Shown piece by piece: positions 10,785 to 58,053 of a stretch of 64,000 nucleotides of DNA. Origin of the DNA: Sclerodactyla briareus (Eukaryota > Echinodermata > Holothuroidea > Dendrochirotida > Sclerodactylidae); contig JAODTK010005911.1 in NCBI GenBank assembly GCA_026419785.1, forward strand, positions 593,001 to 657,000, given 5' to 3'. The position numbers and the translations under genes were made by a program. Below the pieces are notes generated by a model. That model saw only the letters and a program-made list of their open reading frames with translations, made no database searches and had not been told where the DNA came from. Every line of letters begins with the position of its first letter. Position 1 is the first letter of the stretch.

Positions 10785-12765
10785 GGAACGAAGCTGGAGC
10801 AAGGTTGCTTGACTTGGCAGCTAGCCACAACATCACGCCAGCTCCACACATGGTTTCTGGTCGGCGTTGAGCGGTTCACAAAAATACCTGGAACAATGTA
10901 CTGACGGCGCACCAAAAATGCTATCAATCACATTTTTGTTGATAGGTCAAAACGCAAACACCTTACTCACTGCAGGTCTTTTAGCTGCCAATTTGAGACT
11001 GACCACAGGATGGTACTGTTCAACATCAAGCTGAAGTTCTCTTCGCTGCACACCCAGACGCAGACATTCTTTAAACATCCACAGGCTTAGTGATGCTGCA
11101 GTAGGTCAACAATTCTGCCACAGTGTGAAAGAAGACCTAGCTAACACTAATGACCCTCCTCTCTGACAGATAGCCACCATCATTGCACGATCGAGTAACA
11201 GACACCTGTGGTACCCAGAAAGTTTCTGTCAACAAACCACATCTCCAGCCTGATACCATCGAGCTGATCAGAAGAAAGAATTCCTGCCAGGAACATCACT
11301 GAGCAGAGCATCTCCGTAATCTGGTGAAGCACAAGTGCGAGAAGGACATGGAAATGTGGGTCCTGGAACAAGTTTCTACCATTGAGACTGCCTACCGCAA
11401 CAATGACACAGCACGCTTTTCAAAACAACGGAAACTGCTGACCGGTAAGATCAATGCTCCAAATGTGAACTTCAAGGATGCAAACGGCACCACCTTGGAG
11501 AGTGGTCACTGAAGAAGGTCAAACCGTTGTCATGAATATGCTACCATCCTTTTCCAGTCAAGATCTTCAGTGCAGCGTGGATGGTCTACAATTACTTTAA
11601 CTACAATATTTCTGATGATGTCCTCCCAACACTGGGGGAGGTTGAGAAGCCATCACGTCACTCAAGAAAAACAAAGCTACTGGGCCTGGACAAACACATC
11701 CTGGCGGGACGGATGCATCAAGACCTGCTGCAACTGTAACACGCTTCTCAGCCCCATTCACAAGGCTGTGCGGCACATCTGTGGCCACAGGCATTATGGC
11801 CTCAGCGCTGACATCTTTAACCTCATCTCCACTCCATAAGAAGAACGACCGAGGGGTCTGTGAGAAATTATCACACATTGGCTCTCATTAGTCATGCCAG
11901 CAAAGTAGTGCTCAGCATCATGCAGTCACGCCTCCAGACTCACCTTGAAGATGTTAGCAAGGTGCAGTTTGGCTTCCGCTCCGGGAACGTCAACAAAGAT
12001 GCTATTCTGTCGCTCTCAAGAATCTCCTTCTGCCTAATACAGAGCCCAAACACCACTCACATCTTATTTTCGTGAATTACAAGAAAGCCTTCGATAGTGT
12101 AAAACATGCCTCGCTCATGGAGAAGCTGGAGCAGATGAGGGTGGATAAGGATCTCATCAGACTCACAGAGAGTCTTATCATGTGCTGGAGGGCGTTCTAC
12201 AATGAAGAAGAACGAGACAACAGATGCCTTCAACACTCCAGTTGGATGTAGACAGGGCTGCCCACTTTCCCCAATCCTCTTCTCTCTTTTCACTGAATGC
12301 CTTATGAAGGAATGGCATGCTAGGACTGTTGGTTGCCTGGTGCTACTATAGGTGAACGCACAGTAAAGGAACTGAGGTATGCCGAGATTTTCTGTCCTGT
12401 TTTTGCATTATCCGCTGTTGAAGCAGAAGCGGCTCTTAACATCTTGCGGACGTCTCCAGGCCGCTACCAGCTTGTGATTCACACCCTGGTAAAAAAACAG
12501 CTCACCTGGTCAGCCAGACAGACCCAACTCTGCCGACACTGTCCACATGGGGCCCTCCATTATCCCCAACGTTAACTCATACATGTACCTCGGATCCATC
12601 ATCACCCACAACATGGAGGAAGCAAAACACATGCTCTTTTCCCGGAATCGATGCAGATAAGAGCTCAACAACATGGTCCACCTATCGGTTCATTCGCATC
12701 GCTTCTGAGACAGGTCTACGGACTCTTCAGAGTCTTTGACGATTCACTACCACTACTAAAGGATG
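10785..12765 (+). mobile_element. Non-LTR retrotransposon (endonuclease + reverse transcriptase), decayed
   Basis: Read on the plus strand in shifting frames, 10,800-11,070 matches the end of an APE-type endonuclease: RLLDLAASHNIT, then a TW...DHIFVD-like region, then a TDHRMVLFNIKLK-like region. Positions 11,860-12,330 match a reverse transcriptase: LISHASKVVLSIM, FGFRSGN, NYKKAFDSVKH, then GCRQGCPLSPILFSLFTECL. Near 12,570 NSYMYLGSIIT fits the later RT motif. Many stops and frame shifts make it non-functional. The order EN-RT fits an autonomous LINE. Within LINEs the exact clade (RTE-, CR1- or L1-like) is uncertain. It is 5'-truncated and in an intron of the cadherin gene, antisense to it. 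Confidence 0.8.
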
Positions 12766-15165: not shown

Positions 15166-15480
15166 TTTAGTACCATTCAACATATTGTACCCCAAAGAAC
15201 ACAACATGAGGCCTAATAGTACCCAGAAGTTGAACACAATATCAACTTGTGTTTTTTTTTTTTTTTTTTTTACTTAGTTAAGATGGACTCATTTAATCTG
15301 ACAGTTTGTTTACCCAACAGTTGGAGTATAACTGCCTGTTTGCAACCCAATAGTTGGAAATATAACTGACGGTTTGCACCCAGTAGTTGAGATACAACTG
15401 ACCAATTCATACCCAACAGATGATTGATATCAGTGAACTGTATTGTAACCAAATAGTTGAGATGCAATCTGAACTGTTTC
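15165..15480 (+). repeat. Degenerate ~36-bp minisatellite
   Basis: ACCCAATAGTTGGAAATATAACTGAC and variants recur about 6-8 times. A run of 20 T lies inside at 15,252-15,271. It lies just downstream (minus strand) of exon R. Confidence 0.6.
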
Positions 15481-16844: not shown

Positions 16845-17510
16845 ATGGTTTTGGGTGTGGAGCCGACCTGTCCCCTTCTGCCGCACCGGAACTTTAGGCT
16901 TAGCACAATAACTCTCTAACACTTCGTCCGATTGATCGAAACTTGGTAACCATGTCCGCCCTAGTGAAATCTCGGATGAGTCCGAAGTGGGGCATCATGC
17001 ACTGCTGGGGTCCGCTAATTTGCATAATTCCCTGTGACATTTCAGTTCTTCGATTCAACGAAATTGGTGGGTAGGACTATAGTTGATCCCGAAAACTGTG
17101 GTGGTCATGTCAGGTCTCAAGGTCAAATGTGCGGGGTTTATGCAATTGTTCAAACTCTGTCAGATTTGAACGCAACAAAGAAACTTGGTGGTGGGGACTA
17201 GAGTTGATCCCGAATATGTGGAGGTCATTTCAAGTCAATTTTTTGTTGGCGAAATTTATGCGATTTTTGAACGAAACTTGGTGGATTGAGCAATACCCTT
17301 TGGTCCTCACAAAGTTGAGAAGCTTTGAAAAGCCCTCGTGTGTCACCTTGGCTAATGGGGCCTATTTACTTCCATGGATTACAACAAAACTTGGTTTCTG
17401 ACCAATGGGGGTCTTTATGGGGTGTTAGATACTTCGTTCCCATGATTTCCAAAAGCGGGAATAACGTGGGCGGTTTACCCACCTACACATGTCTAGTTAT
17501 TACTGAACCA
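16845..17510 (+). repeat. Dispersed repeat family 2, copy 1
   Basis: It shares a block order with 45,075-45,695: TAACTC..TAACRCTT, ATCGAAACTTGGTAACCATG, AATCTCGGATGAG, repeated GAACAAAACTTGGTGG phrases, and a closing GGCGGTTTACCC then CTAGTT. Both copies have the same orientation and similar length. No coding potential is recognised. The element class is unknown. Confidence 0.65.
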
Positions 17511-18845
17511 CAGCACAATGCACCTAATTAGTAGGAGACATAAGATTTGGCAGTATTCCATATAGGGGCCCTAGGGTTCCCAATTCCCAAACACCTCCAT
17601 GGCCCTTTACCCCAGGACCGTTACATGTAAGTTTGAAGAAACAATCACACTTGGGGGAGGCAGTATGCATTTCAGGTGACCATCGGGTGAAATTTCATGA
17701 AAGGGCCCCCGGGCCCAAGTAGGACCTTGCCCAAAATTCCTGAACACCCCAAGGTACAGCTGATATACCATCATTATAACCAATGGTCAGCACTGTGGCA
17801 ACAAAATTTGTAAGAGGAGAAGCATTTTGCGTAATTCCACATGTGGTCCTAGGGCCCAACACGGGCCTTGGGACTTAAATTCCTGGGCACCATAGAGACT
17901 GCAATTGAACCACCATTATTAACGGAGACATGAGCACGTGCAACAAAATTTATAGGAGTACCAGATTTGCAGTATTTCATATGATTGGCCCTGGCACAAC
18001 CGGGCCTTGAGCAAAAATCCTGAACACCTCCAATGCCCTCTATCCAAGTGACTGTTCACTGTACTTTGGAGAAATCAAGTGAATCGTGGGGAGGAGATGC
18101 ATTTCACGTACCATTGTGTGAAATTTCTAAAATGGGCCCACGGGCCCCAGTGGGACCTTAGACCAAAAATGTCCCGAACAACCCAAATGTACAGCTGATA
18201 AACTATCTTATGAGAGAATGTCAGCACTGTGCATTAAATTTCGTTAAGAGGAGAAGCATTTTGGTAATTCTCATATGGGCGGGGCCAGGCCCACAACGGC
18301 CTTGATGACCTAAATTCCCTGGGTGTCCCTGGGGGACAGGTACAGCTATTAGACACCATTATGACTGAACTCAGCACTGGCCAACAAAATTTGTAGGAGA
18401 TACAGATTTTGCCCCCGGTATTTCATATAATGGGCCAGAGCCCAAACGTGGGCCTCGGAGTCCAAAATTCCCAAAACAAAAACATATGGCCCTCCACCCA
18501 CGGACCATTACATGGAACCTTTGTAAGGAGCATAATTGAATCTTGTGTGGGGAGGAGATGCATTTCAAGTAATTATGTGTGAAATTTCATAAAATGGACC
18601 ATCGGGCCCCAACTGGGGACCTTGGACCAAAAAATTCCTGAATACCCGAAGTAGGGCTCTTCCCATCATTATGACGCAACATCAGCACTGTGCATTCAAA
18701 TTTGTAGGAGGAAGATACATTCTGAAATTTCAAACGAACTGGCATTATACTGCCCCTTTCCGGACCTTTTGACCTTGACCTTCCCAAAGTCAAACATGTC
18801 CCATGGTCAAAAACATTGTGTCCAAAGTTTGGTCGACATCCTCAC
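17510..18845 (+). repeat. GGGCCC dispersed repeat family, copy 3 (long)
   Basis: At least six GGGCC-centred sub-units alternate with CAACAAAATTTGTAGGAG, TTTCATATAATGGGCC and CCAAAATTCCTGAACACC. It ends with TTGACCTTGACC and a GTCCAAAGTTTGGTCGAC tail, like the other copies. It directly follows family 2 copy 1. Confidence 0.65.
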
Positions 18846-18847
18846 AG

Positions 18848-21318
18848 AATTAGTTTAGTGTAGTTTAGTTTAGTTTGTGAATAAGGGTCAGGAAGGAACA
18901 ACCTCATAAACGACCCCGGAGCCACAACATCCAAGGAAAGAACAGGAAGAAAAATGAAACAACCTAACAAAATTCGATGTGATTCATGAAAAATACATCA
19001 AGACTGTCTTGAACGCATTAACAATCTTAGAGCAAACAACATTTACAGGAAAGACAATTCCACTCATTGATCACTCGTCGCCGAGAGAAATATTTAGAAA
19101 TGTCAATCTGCAGCGCTGCCACGAAGCTTGAGACAGTGGATTCTATTTGCAGTAACATTGGAAAATTCAAGAAGTAGTGGAAGGACAGGCCATCGGTCAA
19201 TGGACAATTTTGAAAACCTGGATCAAGTCACCGCGAATGCGCCTCAGCTCCCTGGTAGTTAGACGACGAAGCTTAATCTTCCTCGTAGGATAAATATTTT
19301 CAGACAGTGAATCATTCCAGCTGCCCTACGATGAACGTTTCAATAACCTGCTGTCTTTTGCAAAGTAGGGATTCCACACTTGTACAGAATATTCCAGTGG
19401 CGGTCCACCAGTGCTTAAACAGCCTGACAACAATATATTCTCAAGGGAAATGAATAGTAGTGACGTCTAATCAAGCCAAGAATCCAATTACTCGTATCAG
19501 CTTCGGCACACTGCTTGGAAAGTGCAAAAGAAGATCAAAACAAACCCACGATCTTTTCCGAAATCACCCCCTGAATATTTGGCCATTAACTTGAAGGAAG
19601 CATTGCGATTGTGAAAACCAATATGCTAACTTTGCACTGGTCGACATTGAAAAACAGTTGCCAATCGGAAGACCATTTGGAAATTATATCCAGATCCCTA
19701 TGAACAATTCAGCATCATCATTCGAATCAACCTCCTGATACAACTAGGTATCGTCTGCGAACTTCTTAACCTGAATGAACAGAACCTTCAAGAGCGCCAA
19801 TATACGCCAGAAAGAGTAACGGACCGAGAACCGATCCCTGGGGAAACACCACTTAGGACCTTCTGCAAGAAGACGGACCGCCCATTGCACGCCCATTGAT
19901 GACAACTCGTTGTTCCAATTATGAAGCCACTCACGAAATCCACTTAAGGACATTCCCCTCAATGCCCAAAGCTCTCCAAATTGAGCAAGAGACGCTCATG
20001 AGGAACCTGTCAAAGCTTTCTTGAAAGTCAGGAAATTATATCAACAGCATTGCGTTTCAGCAGACATGTAACATCGTCCATAAATTCCAGAGATGTCAAA
20101 ACGCGAACGATTTTACCTAAACCCATGCTGAGGAATCCCTACTCAGACTATGTCATTGAAATAATGAAACCATATGATCCGAATATTGATTCATTACTTG
20201 CAAACAACACAGTAAGGACTGACTGGCCTGAATTACAAGGAAGAGACCGTTACCTTTCTGAAATAGGTTGAGGAGAAACATTTGCTCTCCTCAATCATCC
20301 GAACATACCTTCTTGCAGAGTAAAATGAAAATAATAGCTAATGGAACAGACAACTCGTCGCAAAGGATTTTTAGTAAGACGATAAACTCCGGCAGGACCC
20401 GGAGCTTTATCACTTGTGAGCTTCTGCAGGTTCTCCTTCACTAAACCAGCGACGAAGATACAATATTACCAATACTATGCAGAGAAGGAAAACCCCGACA
20501 TCTAGGTCACCAAAATTATCCAAGTTCTCATGAGTAAAACAGACGAGAATGAGAACCTTAGCCCATCTCCTGGCCTATCGTGATTGTACTACCGAGTCGG
20601 AATCGATCAAAGGGACAAGCTGTCATGACTTTCTGCTTCCCCTCACATAAGAGAAAAATTGCACGAGGATTCTCCTTGATATTAGAGGCAATCTGCCTCT
20701 CAATCAAGGGGTTTTAGCACCCAGAAAACTAAACTGGAAATGCTTTTGCTGAACTTTGAAATGCCATAGATCAGACACGGCCCAGTTAAGAACGATTAAA
20801 AGTCGCCCTAAATGTCGCTTACGTTTAATGGACAGGAAAACTTCCCTATTCATCCAAGATGGCCCTCTTTTTCTTCTTACTGCTGACGTCCCCTCCAAGG
20901 AACGTAAACTTTCAAAACCTTGTAAACCTTTTCAATGAAACCGATTCTCCAAGAGTCACAGGCATTCGTAACTTTCTAAACAACGTACGCCATCGATTTC
21001 CGCTAAAAAACCTAGAAAGGCCATCGACATTGCCTTCGCTAAACAAGGAACAAGCCAACTCTGTGGGATATTGACGGACCAAGACACATTGAAAGCTAAA
21101 TATCGTGATCACTTCACGAGCTTACCAAGCTCTCTACATTATCTACAGAAAATCTGGATCACTGCTCAAACTAAATCCAAAATATTGTGCTTTCCTGGTA
21201 GGAAAATTTACATGCTGAGCAAGGAAACATCCTGCGTCTCGCAACTTAAAAAATCCAGATCCATGACTGCCAGTAGTACCATCAGACCAAAAATAGCTGG
21301 AATAATTGAAATCACCCG
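18848..21318 (-). mobile_element. Non-LTR retrotransposon (Jockey/CR1-like), 5'-truncated and decayed
   Basis: Read on the minus strand from high to low coordinate, the element starts inside an endonuclease domain (GDFNYSSYFW, SDGTTGSHGSGFF, NFPTR, SLSSDPDFL at 21,145-21,316). A linker with PSWMNREVFLSIKRKRHLGR follows at about 20,800. The reverse transcriptase includes SDKAPGPAGVYR, SLQEGM, TSLEFMDDVT, a PQGSVLGPLLF-like region and VKKFADDT (19,750-20,450). The C-terminal part has RRLTTRELRRIRGDLIQVFK and RRRVINEWN. The 3' end is a short (CTAAA)n run, typical of such LINEs. Many frame breaks are present. It does not encode a working enzyme. Confidence 0.85.
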
Positions 21319-21510: not shown

Positions 21511-22965
21511 GAGTGACATTGCAGATTTCCAATAAGCTCTGAACAGCATAGCTAGTATTGACTAAAATTAATCAAATATGGGCTGGAATTTTAGTTCCCC
21601 CCTCAGAAAAAATCATGTAATTTCAGAAAGAAAAAAATTCACTATACCACCTTCAGGAATTTTCAGCCAATCATTTGCTAGGGGAAACTCATTGTTTAAT
21701 ATTTTTGACCTTGTTCCTAAATCTGAAACTACTTAGTACTATTCCAATCTCTAATATGTTTGCGACAAGAAGATAATTAAAAATTCTGCCAAAAATAAGT
21801 TTCCCCCCTAAAAATGGACATTTTTCGTAATTTCCAACTGATTGCATGGTAAAAGTTGTAATTGGTGCCATTTTTATGTGTTACCGAGTCTGAAATCTTC
21901 TAGCCATAAGAATCAGTAAATAGTGTGGAAAAATAGTGGACAACTTTGCACTCTAAATTCCACAATTTTTGATGACTTTTGCTTTCAGAGAACAAGAAAA
22001 TGTGTTCTGGGGATGTCGGGGTGTGCCAAATGGAATTCATGTTTAGCCACACCAAACTGGAGACAGTTGCAGAGGCAAAAACATCGAAGAAAAGGTGAGG
22101 TACATGCAAAAACAACACTACAGACATATTTAGTGCACCACACTGGACCACACAAACACTCATGGGTTTCCCCCACCGTTAGGGTACTCCTCAGTGGGTA
22201 TTCTCAACCTCCACAATTGTATCTTAGTGATTATGGCAATCTTGCCAACAATATTTCATTTGGCTATTCAGGACAAATGAGATAATAAAGTGAATGTTGG
22301 AACATCAGAGTAACATAGTACATAGATGGGCTGACCATGGACCTTAGAAATTCATATCATCTTTCAAAGACAGAAAATACCCATATACCCCTACAGCCCA
22401 AAAATGACATTATTGGACATTCAATGGATTAATTCAAATCCAACGGTTTTATCTGCCCCAATCTGTTTTCCTCCCAGATATGTCCTTGGTTACAGGGGCA
22501 TAGTTATAAAGAGAACATCACCCCAAATGAACAACTGTGATGGACAAACCATTGAATAGTCTCCGGGTCTGACTGTCAATCTCCAGGAAAAAAGGAAAAA
22601 TTCATCGTTGCCACAGCTGCTGGTTGCACTGATAGTCAGGAATACCTCTTCTTCACAAATCAGTGGTGAAGTTCTTCAGTTCAGAGCTGCGTATCAGAAA
22701 AAAGGTAAACAATAACAGAAGGATCCGCTGACACTGTGATGGGGTAAAGTTGAGCTTCCAGTCTGCGTACGCTCTGGGTTGCTTGCCATCACATCAAGGA
22801 AATAATTGGTGTAGGACTCGTCTTGGGATAGGGTGTCGACAGAGGATGATGGAAGTCCCATCTGTGAGAGAGTAGGGAGATAATCTTTAGAATGGATGTA
22901 TTCACTCAGTGGTCAATCATCTGAATGTAATATTCCAGAATCAATACGAAAAGTGTTAGAAACTT
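21511..22965. other. Intronic sequence, nothing recognised
   Basis: AT-rich sequence with short chance frames. No domain or repeat was recognised between the microsatellite and the 87-bp array. Confidence 0.3.
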
Positions 22966-22969
22966 TTAC

Positions 22970-25900
22970 CATCGCTCTCACTGCTACTATGCTGGAGTGA
23001 AGATGATGATGTCATCAGGGGCCAGTACCTTGTGTGGTTTGAAGTGAGGAATATCCCATCTCTCCACTGTACTATTGATTGGAGTGAAGATGATGAGTCT
23101 CAGGGGCCATACTTGTGGGTTTGAAGTCCGAGAACATATCATCCCTCACTGCTACTATTGACTGGAAGTGAAGAAGATGATGATGTCATCAGGGGACATC
23201 CTTGTTGGGAGAAGTGAGAATCTATCCATCTCTCACTGCTACATTGACTGGAGTGAGATGATGATGTCATAAGGGGCCATACCTTGTGTGGTTCGGGGAA
23301 AGTGAGAACATACCCATCTCCAAGCTACTAAGTGATGCGGTGAAGATGATGATGTCATAAGGGGCCATACCTTGTGTGGATTGAAGTGAGAATATATCCA
23401 TCTCTCACTTGCTACATTGAGGAGAGTGAAGATGATAATGTCATCAGGGGCCATAACTTGTGTGGTTTGAAGTGAGAACATATCCCCATCTCGTCAAGAT
23501 ACTATTGACTGAGTGAAGAGGTGATGATGTCATCAGGGGCCTTACCTTGGTGGTTTGAAGTGAAGTGAGAACAATCCCATCTCTCACTGCTACTATGATT
23601 GGAGTGGAAGATGATGATGTAATCAGGGGCCATACCTTGTTGTGGTTTGAAGTAGTGAGTGAGAAAATATCCAATCTCTCACTGCTACTATGATTGAGTG
23701 AAGATGAGGATGCTCATCAGGGCATACCTGGTGTGGTTTGAAGTGAGAACAGTACCATCTCTATCACTGCTACTATTGATTGGATGAAAGATGTGATGTC
23801 ATCAGGGGCCATAGCCATTGTGTGGTTTGAAGTGAGAACATATACCATCTCTCTCACTGCTACTATTGATTGGGGTGAAGATTGATGATGTCATAAGGGG
23901 CCATTAGCGTGTGTGGTTTGAAGGAGAACATATCCCATCTCTCACTGCTACTATTGCTTGGAAGTGAAATGATGAGGTATCAGTGGGCCATACCTTGTGT
24001 GGTGAAGTGAGAGACATATACCATCTCTCTCACTGGGCTACTATTGATTGGAAGTGAAGAATGATGATGTCATCAGGGGCCATACCGTGTGTGGTTTGAA
24101 GTGAGAATATATTTTCCCGCTCCACGCTACTATTGATTGGGGTGAAAGATGATGATGTCATCAGGGGCCATCCATACATTGTGTGGTTGAATCTGAAGTG
24201 CGAACATATTCCAATCTATCACTGTTGTTTTTTTGTGCTTGTGCCCTCTTCTACTTTTGTTCTTTTGCTATTCTTTTTATTTTAATCTATATTTTTCTAT
24301 TATTCTATTCTGTAATTGATTGGGGGTGACGATGATGATGTCATCAGGGGCCATACCGTGTGTGGTTTGAAGTGAACATGAGAACCGTATCCCACCTCTC
24401 ACTGTACTATTGATTGGAGTGGTAAGATGATGATGTCATCAGGGGCCAACCTGTGTGGTTTGAAGGAGAGCATTATCCCCATCTCTCACTGCTACCTTAT
24501 TGTTGGAGTGAAGAGGACAGGATGATGTCATCCTAGGGGCAGACCTGGTTTGTTTGTTTGTAAGTGACGCATAATATACCACTCTCTCACTGCTTACTAT
24601 TGATTGGATGTGAAGATGATGATGTCCTCAGGGCCAACCTTGTGTGGTTGAAGTGATGCAAACAATCATCTCTCACTGCACTATTGATTGAGCTTGACGT
24701 GATGGATGTCATCTGGGGCCATACCGTGGTGTGGTTTGATGCTGAGAAACATATATCCATCTCTCTCAATGCTACTATTGAGGAGTGAAGATGATGAGGT
24801 CATCAGGGGCCAACCTTGTGTGGCTTTGGAAGTGCGAAAATAGTCCATCTCTCCGCTGTTACTAGATGGAGGAAGATGATGATGTTCTTCAGGGGCCATA
24901 TGCTTGTGTGGTTTGAGTGATGAACAAATACCATCTCTCACTGCTACTATTGAGGTTCGTGAAAGAGGATGATGATGTCATCAGGGGCCGACCTTGTGTG
25001 GTTTGAAGTGAAAACATAGCCATCTCTCATGACTATAGTGATTGGAGAGTGGAAGATGATGATGTCATCTAGCGGGGCCATACCTTGGTGTGGTTTGAAG
25101 TGAGAATATATTCCATCTCTACTGCTTACTATTGATTGGAGTGAAGATGTGTGTCATCAGTGGGCCATACTGGGGTGGGGTGATCAGTGAGAACCATATC
25201 CCATCTCTCACTGCTACTATTGATTGGGGTGAAGATGATGATGTAAAGGGGCCATACCTTGTGTGGTTGAAGTTAGTGAGAAACATATCAGTCCACCTCT
25301 TCACTGCTACTATTGATTGGAGTGAAGAGATGATGTCATCAGGGGCCATACCTTGTGTGGTTTGAAGTGAGACCTATCCCATCTCTCACTGCACTATTGA
25401 GTGCGAGTGAGAGGATGATGTCATCAGGGGCCAACCCTTGTGTGGTTGAAGTGGAGAACATATTACCATCTCTCTCACTGCGACTTTGATTGGGTGAATG
25501 ATGATGATGTCATCAGGGGCCAGTACTTGTGTGGTTTGAGTGAGAACATCTATACAATCTCTCACTGCTACTATGATTGGAGTGAAGATGATTGATGTCT
25601 AAGGGGCAAACCTTGTGTGGTTGAAGTGAGAACAGAATACCATCCCTCACTGCTACTATTGATTGGAAGTGACGATGATGATGGTGCATCAGGGGCCATA
25701 CCTCGTGTGGCTGAAGTGAGAAAAAAAAAAAAAAAAAAAAAAACCCATATCATCTCTCGCTGCTACTAGTGATTGGAAGTGAAGATTGATGATGTCTCAG
25801 GGGCCAGTAACTTGTGTGGTTTGAAGTGAGATCATATCCCATCTCTCACTGCTACATTGATGGGGAGTGAGATTGTGATGTCATCAGGGGCCATAGCCTT

Positions 25901-26135
25901 GTGTGTTTCTGAAGTGGCCCACATATCCCATACTCTCCGCTACTATTGAGTGGAGTGAAGATGATGTGTATCAGGGGCCCATACCTGTGTGGTTTTAAGG
26001 GATAACCATCCCCTCTCACGCTACTATTGATTGGATTGAAGGATGATTATGTCTCAGGGGCCAACCTTTGGTGGTTTGAAGTGAGAACATATTCCATCTC
26101 ACTGCTACTGTGAACTGGGTGAACAGAAGGATGTC
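22970..26135 (-). repeat. 87-bp tandem array (~35 units), coding-derived and possibly coding
   Basis: The consensus unit has 87 bases, exactly 29 codons. On the minus strand one frame reads GMAPDDIIIFTPI then NSSSERWDMFSLQTTQ without a stop. This resembles the middle of an EC repeat (DI.FTI... then F.L...TG). The frame is the one used by cadherin exon Q, which abuts the array upstream. Single units carry many one-base gaps and insertions, so no long frame survives in the text as given. A T-rich non-repeat insert lies at about 24,222-24,310 and a pure A run at about 25,721-25,743. Each unit also has a donor-like AAG|GTATGG. It could be an expanded exon or an intronic satellite made from one. 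Confidence 0.85.
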
Positions 26136-26177
26136 ATTCGGGTACTTTGCTTCGTCAGTGCTGAAATCGCCAATAAC
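26112..26177 (-). CDS. Cadherin exon Q, 5' part, running into the array
   Basis: The acceptor is TTTTTTTACCTGACAG|GTTATT. Exon P ends with two bases of a codon, and the join in that phase gives VEIW then LLAISA, the start of an EC repeat. The shifted frame then reads TDEAKYPNDILLFTQF, which fits the following DxD..NDI.F strand. One base must be lost between these parts. The frame goes on as VAVRWNMFSLQTTKG into the first unit of the 87-bp array. The exon end could not be fixed. Confidence 0.5.
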
Positions 26178-26914: not shown

Positions 26915-27057
26915 CAGATTTCAACAGGAGTGGTTGATGCATGCATGGTGCTCTTGAAAGGTGCAGCGAAAACAGGCGGGTTGTCATTAATATCCAACAC
27001 TGTAACTTCAACAATCATTGAGCTGTTCAGACTCACTGGTGAACCCCTGTCAATTGC
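26915..27057 (-). CDS. Cadherin exon P with DINDNPP calcium linker
   Basis: The exon runs from TTCTTTTCTAG|GCAATT to AAATCTG|GTATGT. The intact frame begins AIDRGSPVSLNSSM, the A.D.G.P motif of an EC repeat. It continues IVEVTVLDINDNPPVF, a perfect calcium linker, and ends with the first strand of the next repeat (STMHASTTPVEI). Its length is 143 bases, leaving two bases of a split codon. Upstream exon O ends ..HTLTI, which joins AIDRG exactly as the family expects. Confidence 0.93.
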
Positions 27058-29967: not shown

Positions 29968-31938
29968 GCATGACACTACTACCCCATCATAAAGTACCTT
30001 ACACCATGATACAGTATTACACTACTACCCCATGATGAAGTATCTTATACCATGCTACAATATGACACTACTACCCCATGATAAAGTATCTTACACCATG
30101 ATACAGTATGACACTACTACCCCATGATAAAGTATCTTACACCATGATACAGTATGACACGACTACCACATGATAAAGTACCTTATACCATGATACAATA
30201 TGACACTACTACCCCATGATAAAGTAACTTACACCATGATACAGTATGACACGACTACCACATGATAAAGTACCTTATACCATGATACAGCATGACACTA
30301 CTACCCCATGATAAAGTGTCTTACGCCATGATACAGTATTACACTACTACCCCATGATAAAGTATCTTACACCATGATATAGTATGACAACTACTACCCC
30401 ATCATAAGTATCTTACACCATGATACAGTAAGACACTACTACCCCATCATAAAGTATCTTACACCATGATATAGTATGACACTACTACCCCATCATAAAG
30501 TATCTTACACCATGATATAGTATTACACTACTACCCCATGATAAAGTATCTACACCATGATAAAGTATCTTACACCATGATATCGTATGACAATACCACC
30601 CCATCATAAAGTATCTCACACCATGATACAGTATGACACTACTACCACATGATAAAGTACCTTATACCATGATAAAGTATGACACTACTACCCCATCATA
30701 AAGTACCTTACACCATGATACAGTATGACACTACTACACCATGATAAAGTATGACACTACTACCACATCATAAAGTACCTTATACCATGATACAGTATGA
30801 CACTACTACCCCATGATAAAGTAACTTACACCATGATACAGTATGACACTACTATTCCATCATAAAGTATCTTACACCATGATACAATATGACACTACTA
30901 CATCATGATAAAGTATCTTACACCATGATACAATATGACACTACTACCACATGATAAAGTACCTTATACCATGACACAGTATGACACTACTACCCCATCA
31001 TAAGTATCTTACACCATGGTATAGTATGACACTACTACCCCATCATAAAGTATTCACACCATGATACAGTGAGACACTACTACCCCATCATAAAGTATCT
31101 TACACCATGATATCGTATGACAATACCACCCCATCATAAAGTATTCACACCATGATACAGTATTACACTACTACCCCATAATAAGTATCTTACACCATGA
31201 TATAGTATTACACTACTACCCCATCATGAAGTATCTCACACCATGATACAGTGAGACACTACTACCCCATGATAAAGTATCTAACACCATGATATAGTGT
31301 GACACTACTACCCCATCATAAAGTACCTTACACCATGATACAGTATTACACTACTACCCCATATAAAGTATCTTACACCATGATATAGTATGGACACTAC
31401 TACCCCATCATAAAGTACCTTACACCATGATACAGTATTACACTACTACCCCATCATGAAGTATCTCACACCATGATACAGTGAGACACTACTACCCCAT
31501 GATAAAGTATCTAACACCATGATATAGTGTGACACTACTACCACTACCCCCTCATAAAGTATCTTACACCATGATTAGTATGACACTACTACCACATCAT
31601 AAAGTATCTACACCATGATATAGTATGACACTACTACCCCATCATAAAGTATCTCACACCATGCTACAGTATGACACTACTACCCCATCATGAAGTATCG
31701 CACACCATGATACAGTATTACACTACTACCCCATCATAAAGTACCTTACACCATGATATAGTATGACACTACCACCCCATCATAAAGTATCTCACACCAT
31801 GCTACAGTATGACACTACTACCCCATAATAAAGTATCTTACACCATGATACAGTAAGGCACTACTACTCCCTGATAAGTATCTTATACCATGCTACAATA
31901 TGACACTACTACCCCGTGATAAAAAGTAGCTCACCCAT
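29968..31938 (+). repeat. 46-bp minisatellite, about 43 units
   Basis: The unit CACCATGATACAGTATGACA, then CTACTACCCCATGATAAAGT, then ATCTTA recurs head to tail over nearly 2 kb. It has small changes and scattered one-base gaps. It ends about 170 bases below cadherin exon N. The period is not a multiple of three and the frames are full of stops, so it is intronic. Confidence 0.95.
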
Positions 31939-39221: not shown

Positions 39222-39668
39222 CATAGCTCAGGTGATGAAGAGGTCTAGAGATTGTGTTTTCTCTTATTCGTGCAGCTTTTTCAGGTTGATGAGGTGGTCG
39301 GAGATTGTTTCTCATCGTTGTAGCTCAGGAGATGAGGAGAGTCAGGAGATGTGGTTTTCTCTATCGTGGTAGCTCAGGGTGATGAGGAGTCTGGAGATGT
39401 GGTTTTCTCTATAACTGGCAGCTAAGGGTGATGAGGTCTGGAAATGTGGTTTTCTCTATTATGGCAGCTCAAGGTGTGGAGGTCTGCGAAATGTGGTTTT
39501 CTCTATTCTGGGCAGCTCAGTTTGATGAACAGGTCTGGAGATGTGGTTCTCATTTGGGTAAGCTTAGGGTGGATGATGAGGTCTGGAGATGTGGTTTTTT
39601 TCTCTATTAGTGGTAGCTCAGGGTGATGAGGAGGTCTGGAGATGTGTTTTTCTATTTGGGGCAAGATC
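39222..39668 (+). repeat. ~52-bp minisatellite, 8-9 units
   Basis: The motif AGCTCAGGGTGATGAGGAGG, then TCTGGAGATGTGGTTTTCTC, then TATTATGGC repeats with numerous one- and two-base gaps. It is intronic. Confidence 0.85.
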
Positions 39669-57470: not shown

Positions 57471-57782
57471 TTTAGTATTTCCATGCTCTGCTTCTAAGTT
57501 TAGTAGGACATTAATGGGACATTGATCTATTAATTATTATACATTTCCTGTTAATTAAAACGTTGTTCCCCCACCATGAATCACTTGAAAAGATTTCACA
57601 CCTGAATATGTTTGGGGCATATAACTTTTGTTTTGTTGGTTTAGTTGCTGGAAACAGGGATTGATGCCCATATTTATGAAGCTCATGTGAACACCGATAG
57701 TTACAGATCGGATTGTTCACGGCTTTGATCATAGCAGGAAGGTATCTGCCGTATTGGACATGGCGGGACCTAATAAACTCAC

Positions 57783-58053
57783 CTGACACTTCATTGCTGA
57801 TGGTAAAGTCCCCCATAAAGGTCTGAGGATCCTCTTGACCATGGCGACCTAATTAAACTCACATGACATCAGTGATGATGGAAAGTCCCCATACAGGGTC
57901 TGATGGATCTCTTGAAATGGCTACCTATAAACTCACCTGGATCTCTTTGATGATGGTAAACGTCCACCATACAGGGTTGATGGATCCTCCTCTACACATT
58001 TGGAGATATTGTACGGGGGGAAAATGATCATGTCGTGAATCCAGCTCAAAGAT
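57783..58053 (-). CDS. Cadherin-type exon D with triplicated 3' end
   Basis: The acceptor is TTTCTCTTTTCTGGCAG|ATCTTT. The frames IFELDSRHDHFPP and YNISKCVEEDPSTLYGG, then FTIIKEIQ, together look like an EC ITY-strand region. One or two frame breaks are needed. The last ~75 bases of the exon with its donor are present three times in a row (57,783-57,858, 57,859-57,934, 57,935-58,010). Donors are CAG|GTGAGT at 57,937 and 57,783 and a weak CAT|GTGAGT between. The exon may end at 57,937 or extend to 57,783. Confidence 0.55.

Follow-up and report, generated by a model that had tools for sequence, protein, structure and literature searches.

Organization of the cadherin locus

The window analysed here is a 64-kb stretch of contig C3154 (contig positions 593001–657000), and carries on its minus strand part of a cadherin gene. 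An exon at 26915..27057 (encoding ..VTVLDINDNPPVFAAPFKSTMHASTTPVE.. and ending at about 26915, before GTATGT) matched cadherins in a phmmer search, and is 87% identical over 158 bp to its counterpart in a paralogous gene described below. Exon Q follows on the same strand at 26066..26177; it spans 112 nt (ctgacag|VIGDFSTDEAKYPNDILLFT..RWNMFSLQTTK G|), its ends are placed from splice motifs and from the paralog, and its translation starts VIGDFSTDEAKYPNDILLFTQF. The initial annotation had ended this exon at 26112, which is too early, as both motif and paralog place the end at 26066. The exon Q donor reads CAAAG|GTTGGC as assembled.

Below exon Q lies a tandem array of 87-bp units, of which ~35 beyond the exon copy occupy positions 22971..26065 of the minus strand, read here as intron sequence. 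In the 64-kb window, TRF reports a period of 87–89 bp at 22975–25722, resumed at 25751–26109, and a wraparound alignment to the 87-bp consensus yields 37 rows, where row 1 is the exon copy (the 3' part of exon Q is array unit 1) and rows 0 and 36 are partial. The consensus is free of stops and translates to APDDIIIFTPINSSSERWDMFSLQTTQGM, in the same frame as the cadherin exon above it. The copy number, the open consensus continuing the frame of exon Q, and a donor-like AAG|GTATGG had all been noted in the initial annotation, and each is borne out by these alignments. The unit is composed of the last ~74 nt of the exon, the 5' splice site AAG|GTATGG and ~12 nt of the adjoining intron, as in the exon-boundary minisatellites termed “mirages”.

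Within the array are an AT-rich island in rows 21–22 (24226..24318, ends approximate, minus strand; T-rich on the plus strand) and a run of 23 A (25721..25743, plus strand), where two TRF rows break. A comparison of the array to plasmid records gave no match. DOMON was rejected as the identity of the unit, its match to the tripled consensus (E = 0.003) lying below the DOMON cut-off.

The next exon region (22542..22861, minus strand, lower end approximate) lies beyond the array, and begins at the acceptor ctctctcacag|ATGGGACTTCC. It is entered in phase 1, giving FSLQTTQ-DGTSI, and its remainder requires indel corrections. If exon Q with one unit is spliced at AAG| onto the exon from 22861, the product would read ..DIIIFTPINSSSERWDMFSLQTTQ-DGTSI.., as the junction AAG| + |AT GGx ACx TCC ATC encodes FSLQTTQ-DGTSI. 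I also considered an exon Q end at GCA|GTGAGA (phase 0, then MGLPSSSVDT..), since the window reads open in that frame, but dropped it because only the DGTSI frame makes the first two exon differences between the paralogs (GGG/GGA and ACT/ACA) silent. By motif and paralog, what appears to be the authentic exon copy stands at the edge of the array, with the next exon beyond it.

A paralogous array on the same contig

I searched the genome (319 Mb in 3,171 contigs) with a piece of the array. At least 21 places were found among the matches listed, all on C3154 (two candidate loci were scored). A paralogous array is located at C3154:500815–501202, in reverse orientation and ~115 kb from the window array. 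The region C3154:456001–657000, which includes the window, contains a convergent, collinear pair of paralogous cadherin genes. The two are collinear across many exons, and the layout at the array is identical: in the paralog, six units including the exon copy lie between the homologous exons, with tgctgacag|GTTATGAGATTACAGCC.. at the upstream-side exon and catgcag|ATGGAACATCC at the next. The paralog exon's own donor reads GGGATGG, without GT. The codon before the donor is CAA in the paralog exon copy and TAA in three of the five paralog array units, and at that column C is found in 32/32 window units.

The array units differ little between the paralogs, despite the poor alignment of the introns, a likeness that could come from exchange, constraint or recent spread. 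An interspersed repeat, including a 308-bp tandem piece, is common to window positions 17500–18900 and to C3154 at ~499–500 kb. On the plus strand, the list of open reading frames for positions 11500–12500 of the window includes frames that are reverse-transcriptase-like by eye.

With a single unit, an EC construct from the paralog (one-base indels passed over) matches the Pfam Cadherin profile over positions 8–91 of 93 (18.3 bits, E = 0.003), whereas with two units the match covers only 8–54 (18.4 bits), both being below the cut-off of 28.8 bits. The one-unit protein also matches PDB cadherins, with a best E of 1.5e-4. Since one unit spans most of the profile and a second shortens the match, a single unit seems to make a whole cadherin repeat. 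The window's conceptual cadherin repeat had no Pfam match and, alone, no cadherin match, with either the preferred junction or GCA|GTGAGA; a longer window construct matches cadherins (E = 2.8e-22), largely via LDINDNPPVF of the upstream exon.

Sequence quality and coding potential

Substitutions and frames were analysed in 32 of the 37 rows, leaving out rows 0, 1 and 36 at the edges and rows 21 and 22 in the AT-rich island. These 32 rows (2,672 bases) contain 108 substitutions, 112 deletions and 162 insertions, with row 5, the one interrupted by the A run, contributing 3 to the insertion count. Over all inner rows the 87-bp array shows 5.0% substitutions, 4.7% deletions and 7.3% insertions, compared to 5.8%, 3.3% and 0.7% respectively in a 46-bp array of the window; insertions range from 1.2 to 5.2% in the other compared arrays (5.2% in a 48-bp array), and reach 4.9% in the paralog array. 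On the plus strand the substitutions are lopsided, with T>G accounting for 27 and C>A for 24 of the 108. In large part, the array stretch looks like unpolished read noise.

The 46-bp array itself (29970–31923, ~42 units) lies in an intron, below a cadherin exon, and its commonest substitutions are T>C and C>T. The 48-bp array (39224–39653) has the plus-strand consensus AQGDEESGDVVFSIVG, opposite to the gene strand, and is cadherin-like by eye.

Unit length modulo three is 0, 1 and 2 in 11, 9 and 12 of the 32 units respectively, and the array as assembled has 44, 63 and 57 stops in its three frames, so the single open frame across all units envisaged in the initial annotation is not seen in the assembly. 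Because of the read noise, stops and unit lengths as assembled tell little of the true sequence. The substitutions comprise 13 synonymous and 95 non-synonymous changes, and none creates a stop. Placing the same spectrum at random gives an expectation of 16.8 synonymous changes (P(≥13) = 0.89), and the comparison of synonymous to non-synonymous changes that had been recommended thus reveals no synonymous excess. For substitution-made stops the expectation is 3.1 (P(none) = 0.04), and their absence is a weak hint toward coding. Neither the frame-keeping nor the purifying selection of a coding internal repeat is observed, within the limits that sequence noise sets on such a test. The donor AAGGTATGG is intact 7 times, where the 9-mers of the unit average 12.0 exact copies, and it ranks 73rd of 87 from the cleanest; no selection on the donors is seen in 9-mer conservation within the array.

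Similar arrays at other exon ends

Across the 201 kb of C3154 surveyed (456001–657000), three more exon ends in the cadherin gene pair carry such arrays, with units of 33, 77 and ~82 bp. The 77-bp units (CAG|GTGAGT) are found at 57767..57989 of the window, minus strand, with the exon-proximal donor after 57937. A degenerate 33-bp array, whose consensus is without a good donor, lies below a cadherin exon at 15312..15402 (minus strand), and its clear form is in the paralog at C3154:505134–505434 (CAG|GTCAGT, 9.2 units). The ~82-bp array (AGG|GTAAGT) belongs to the plus-strand gene and is fairly clean, with 15 GGTAAG at contig positions 528987–530117, the first being the exon's own; its counterpart in the other gene has 7 GGTAAG at 583162–583677, six in the array and that at 583677 upstream of it. 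The unit length is a multiple of three in two of the four exon-end arrays (87, 33, 77 and ~82 bp).

I scored donors with an approximate matrix, which underlies both the threshold of 8.5 and the score of 8.7 for the consensus 87-bp unit. Among 32 arrays in the 201 kb, six reach at least 8.5 in the sense orientation, against one in antisense and 2.2 in shuffles (P = 0.02). Five of 33 arrays in the two genes lie within 60 nt of an exon 3' end and none within that distance of a 5' end, a count that omits the 77-bp case and is descriptive only, since the exon blocks were hand-set and four of the five touched ones came from those loci.

Patterns of three tandem donors occur at a minimum of 20 further loci outside C3154, of which 19 were examined (C3105:256277 was left out). 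Three tandem copies of AGGTAAGT gave at least 8 matches versus at least 47 for the reversed word, and three of AGGTGAGT at least 44 versus at least 15. At five of the 19 loci (C2492, C2911, C2735, C1968 and C3004), an open stretch resembling an exon leads up to the first donor and ends there; the first four are candidates by eye, and homology identifies the exon at C3004 only. No clear exon was seen at the array edge in the other 14 donor-bearing loci, 13 by inspection and C440, which was rejected as an exon edge, its open stretch sitting within the array.

The C3004 exon is that of RBBP4, matching residues 101–158 of chain 9kof_H with an E-value of 2e-33. By homology and alignment, its array consists of ~29 units of 97–99 bp at C3004:201501–204407, and aligns in 30 rows, of which the first is the exon copy and the last is partial. 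Some units are a near-perfect match to the exon copy. The next RBBP4 exon piece, PDIRLRGHQKEGYGLS, lies beyond the array at C3004:204624–204671. A junction-spanning query, which I take to be the human RBBP4 sequence, matches chains of RBBP4, RBBP7 and fly CAF1 over its full length, 46 of 46 residues. As these chains have no insert at the junction, the RBBP4 array is most simply intronic, and the window array is built like it. A Pfam search with eight exon pieces, including that of RBBP4, returned no match. Several genes of this genome are affected, namely the cadherin pair and RBBP4, with four candidate loci in addition, and this is a further trait of mirages.

Discussion

Tandem repeats spanning exon–intron boundaries have been described as mirages in lancelets, in Adh3, globins (BflGb6 and BflGb9), troponin C and PGBD5 (PMC3087553, PMC3902484), and I therefore assign the cadherin array to this kind. 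Common to both are boundary-spanning minisatellite units, many with splice signals, and the involvement of several genes per genome. In the lancelet, RT-PCR data for Adh3 and globins are said to suggest that regular splicing is undisturbed. Sizes differ, with ~35 units of 87 bp here, 150–160 bp in BflGb6 (6 units in one haplotype, 3 in the other) and 10–72 bp in Adh3. Lancelet mirages are reported at both exon ends, while the present cases are all at 3' ends, because the search used donors. Marker searches in the present genome gave 0 matches to the GFP family, a lancelet marker, and 0 to bindin, the controls being silent as well, and turned up no COX1.

Two other systems offer partial parallels. 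In the VNTR of human ABCA7 intron 18 (PMC5954066), the exon donor is the first GT in the array and use of the next donor keeps one unit, as could be the case here; it differs in its 25-bp out-of-frame unit that begins at the donor, and in that the following exon is skipped to an extent that depends on VNTR length. Introns gained when AGGT segments duplicate in tandem (Rogers 1989 and Hellsten 2011, cited in PMC4974935) likewise involve tandem AG|GT copies, and splicing can remove whole copies; in contrast, the array here amplifies the boundary of an existing intron.

I infer that a tandem duplication took in the final ~74 nt of the cadherin exon together with the 5' splice site and the adjoining ~12 nt of intron, and that this segment then expanded to ~35 units. 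Splicing would normally pair the exon-proximal donor with the acceptor before 22861, so the remaining units would leave with the intron and the product would retain one unit. The open 29-codon consensus would be an inheritance from the exon, and the divisibility of 87 by three a coincidence. An exon-boundary minisatellite of the mirage type, removed with the intron, is very probably what the window contains, and the alternative put forward in the initial annotation, a satellite in the intron that arose from the edge of an exon, is the better supported of its two readings. Counting against this are the imperfect exon donors, the lack of substitution-made stops, the unmatched window EC construct, the donor loci without an exon, and the likeness of the paralogous arrays, which could reflect constraint. 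If the imperfect donors (GTTGGC, and GGGATGG in the paralog) are real, a later donor would serve, and in the window its use would add 29-residue modules in frame.

Such use could be general, with any AAG|GT of ~35 in-phase donors usable, giving isoforms with 1, 2, 3 or more 29-residue modules without frameshift. The unit of 3 × 29 nt, the high-scoring consensus donor, the imperfect exon donor in both paralogs and the retention of a unit in ABCA7 (PMC5954066) are consistent with this, but the donor 9-mer is no better kept than the rest of the unit, and a second unit in the paralog would introduce TAA; I regard it as improbable. If true, splicing would set the number of modules inserted into one cadherin repeat, and changes in repeat number between individuals or cells would alter an adhesion protein without frameshift.

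Even less probable is that the entire array is exonic, adding ~35 copies of a 29-residue module, or ~1,000 residues, to the cadherin, as the initial annotation had favored. Its open consensus in the exon frame, the missing stops and the invariant C at the paralog's TAA column would fit. Against it stand the absence of a synonymous excess, the scatter of unit lengths modulo three (to which noise contributes), the TAA of the paralog units, the Pfam match shortened by a second unit and sister units, those of RBBP4 among them, that are not always divisible by three, and this proposal finds no support here. Least probable of all is a unit number invented by noisy reads, to which the high insertion rate and lopsided substitutions might point, since the 87-bp unit and its layout recur elsewhere on the contig, and the cleaner ~82-bp array of this type has its 15 donors evenly spaced.

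Under the preferred reading, removal of the array with the intron, the lesson is that an open, in-frame tandem array beside an exon may consist of exon-edge copies lying in the intron, and not of coding sequence. The cadherin (~35 units) and RBBP4 (~29 units) arrays are long examples of a kind of repeat that has been little described, and would provide a natural test of how splicing chooses one donor among dozens that are nearly identical. Should the host be something other than a lancelet, the mirage class would be wider than PMC3087553 and PMC3902484 describe.
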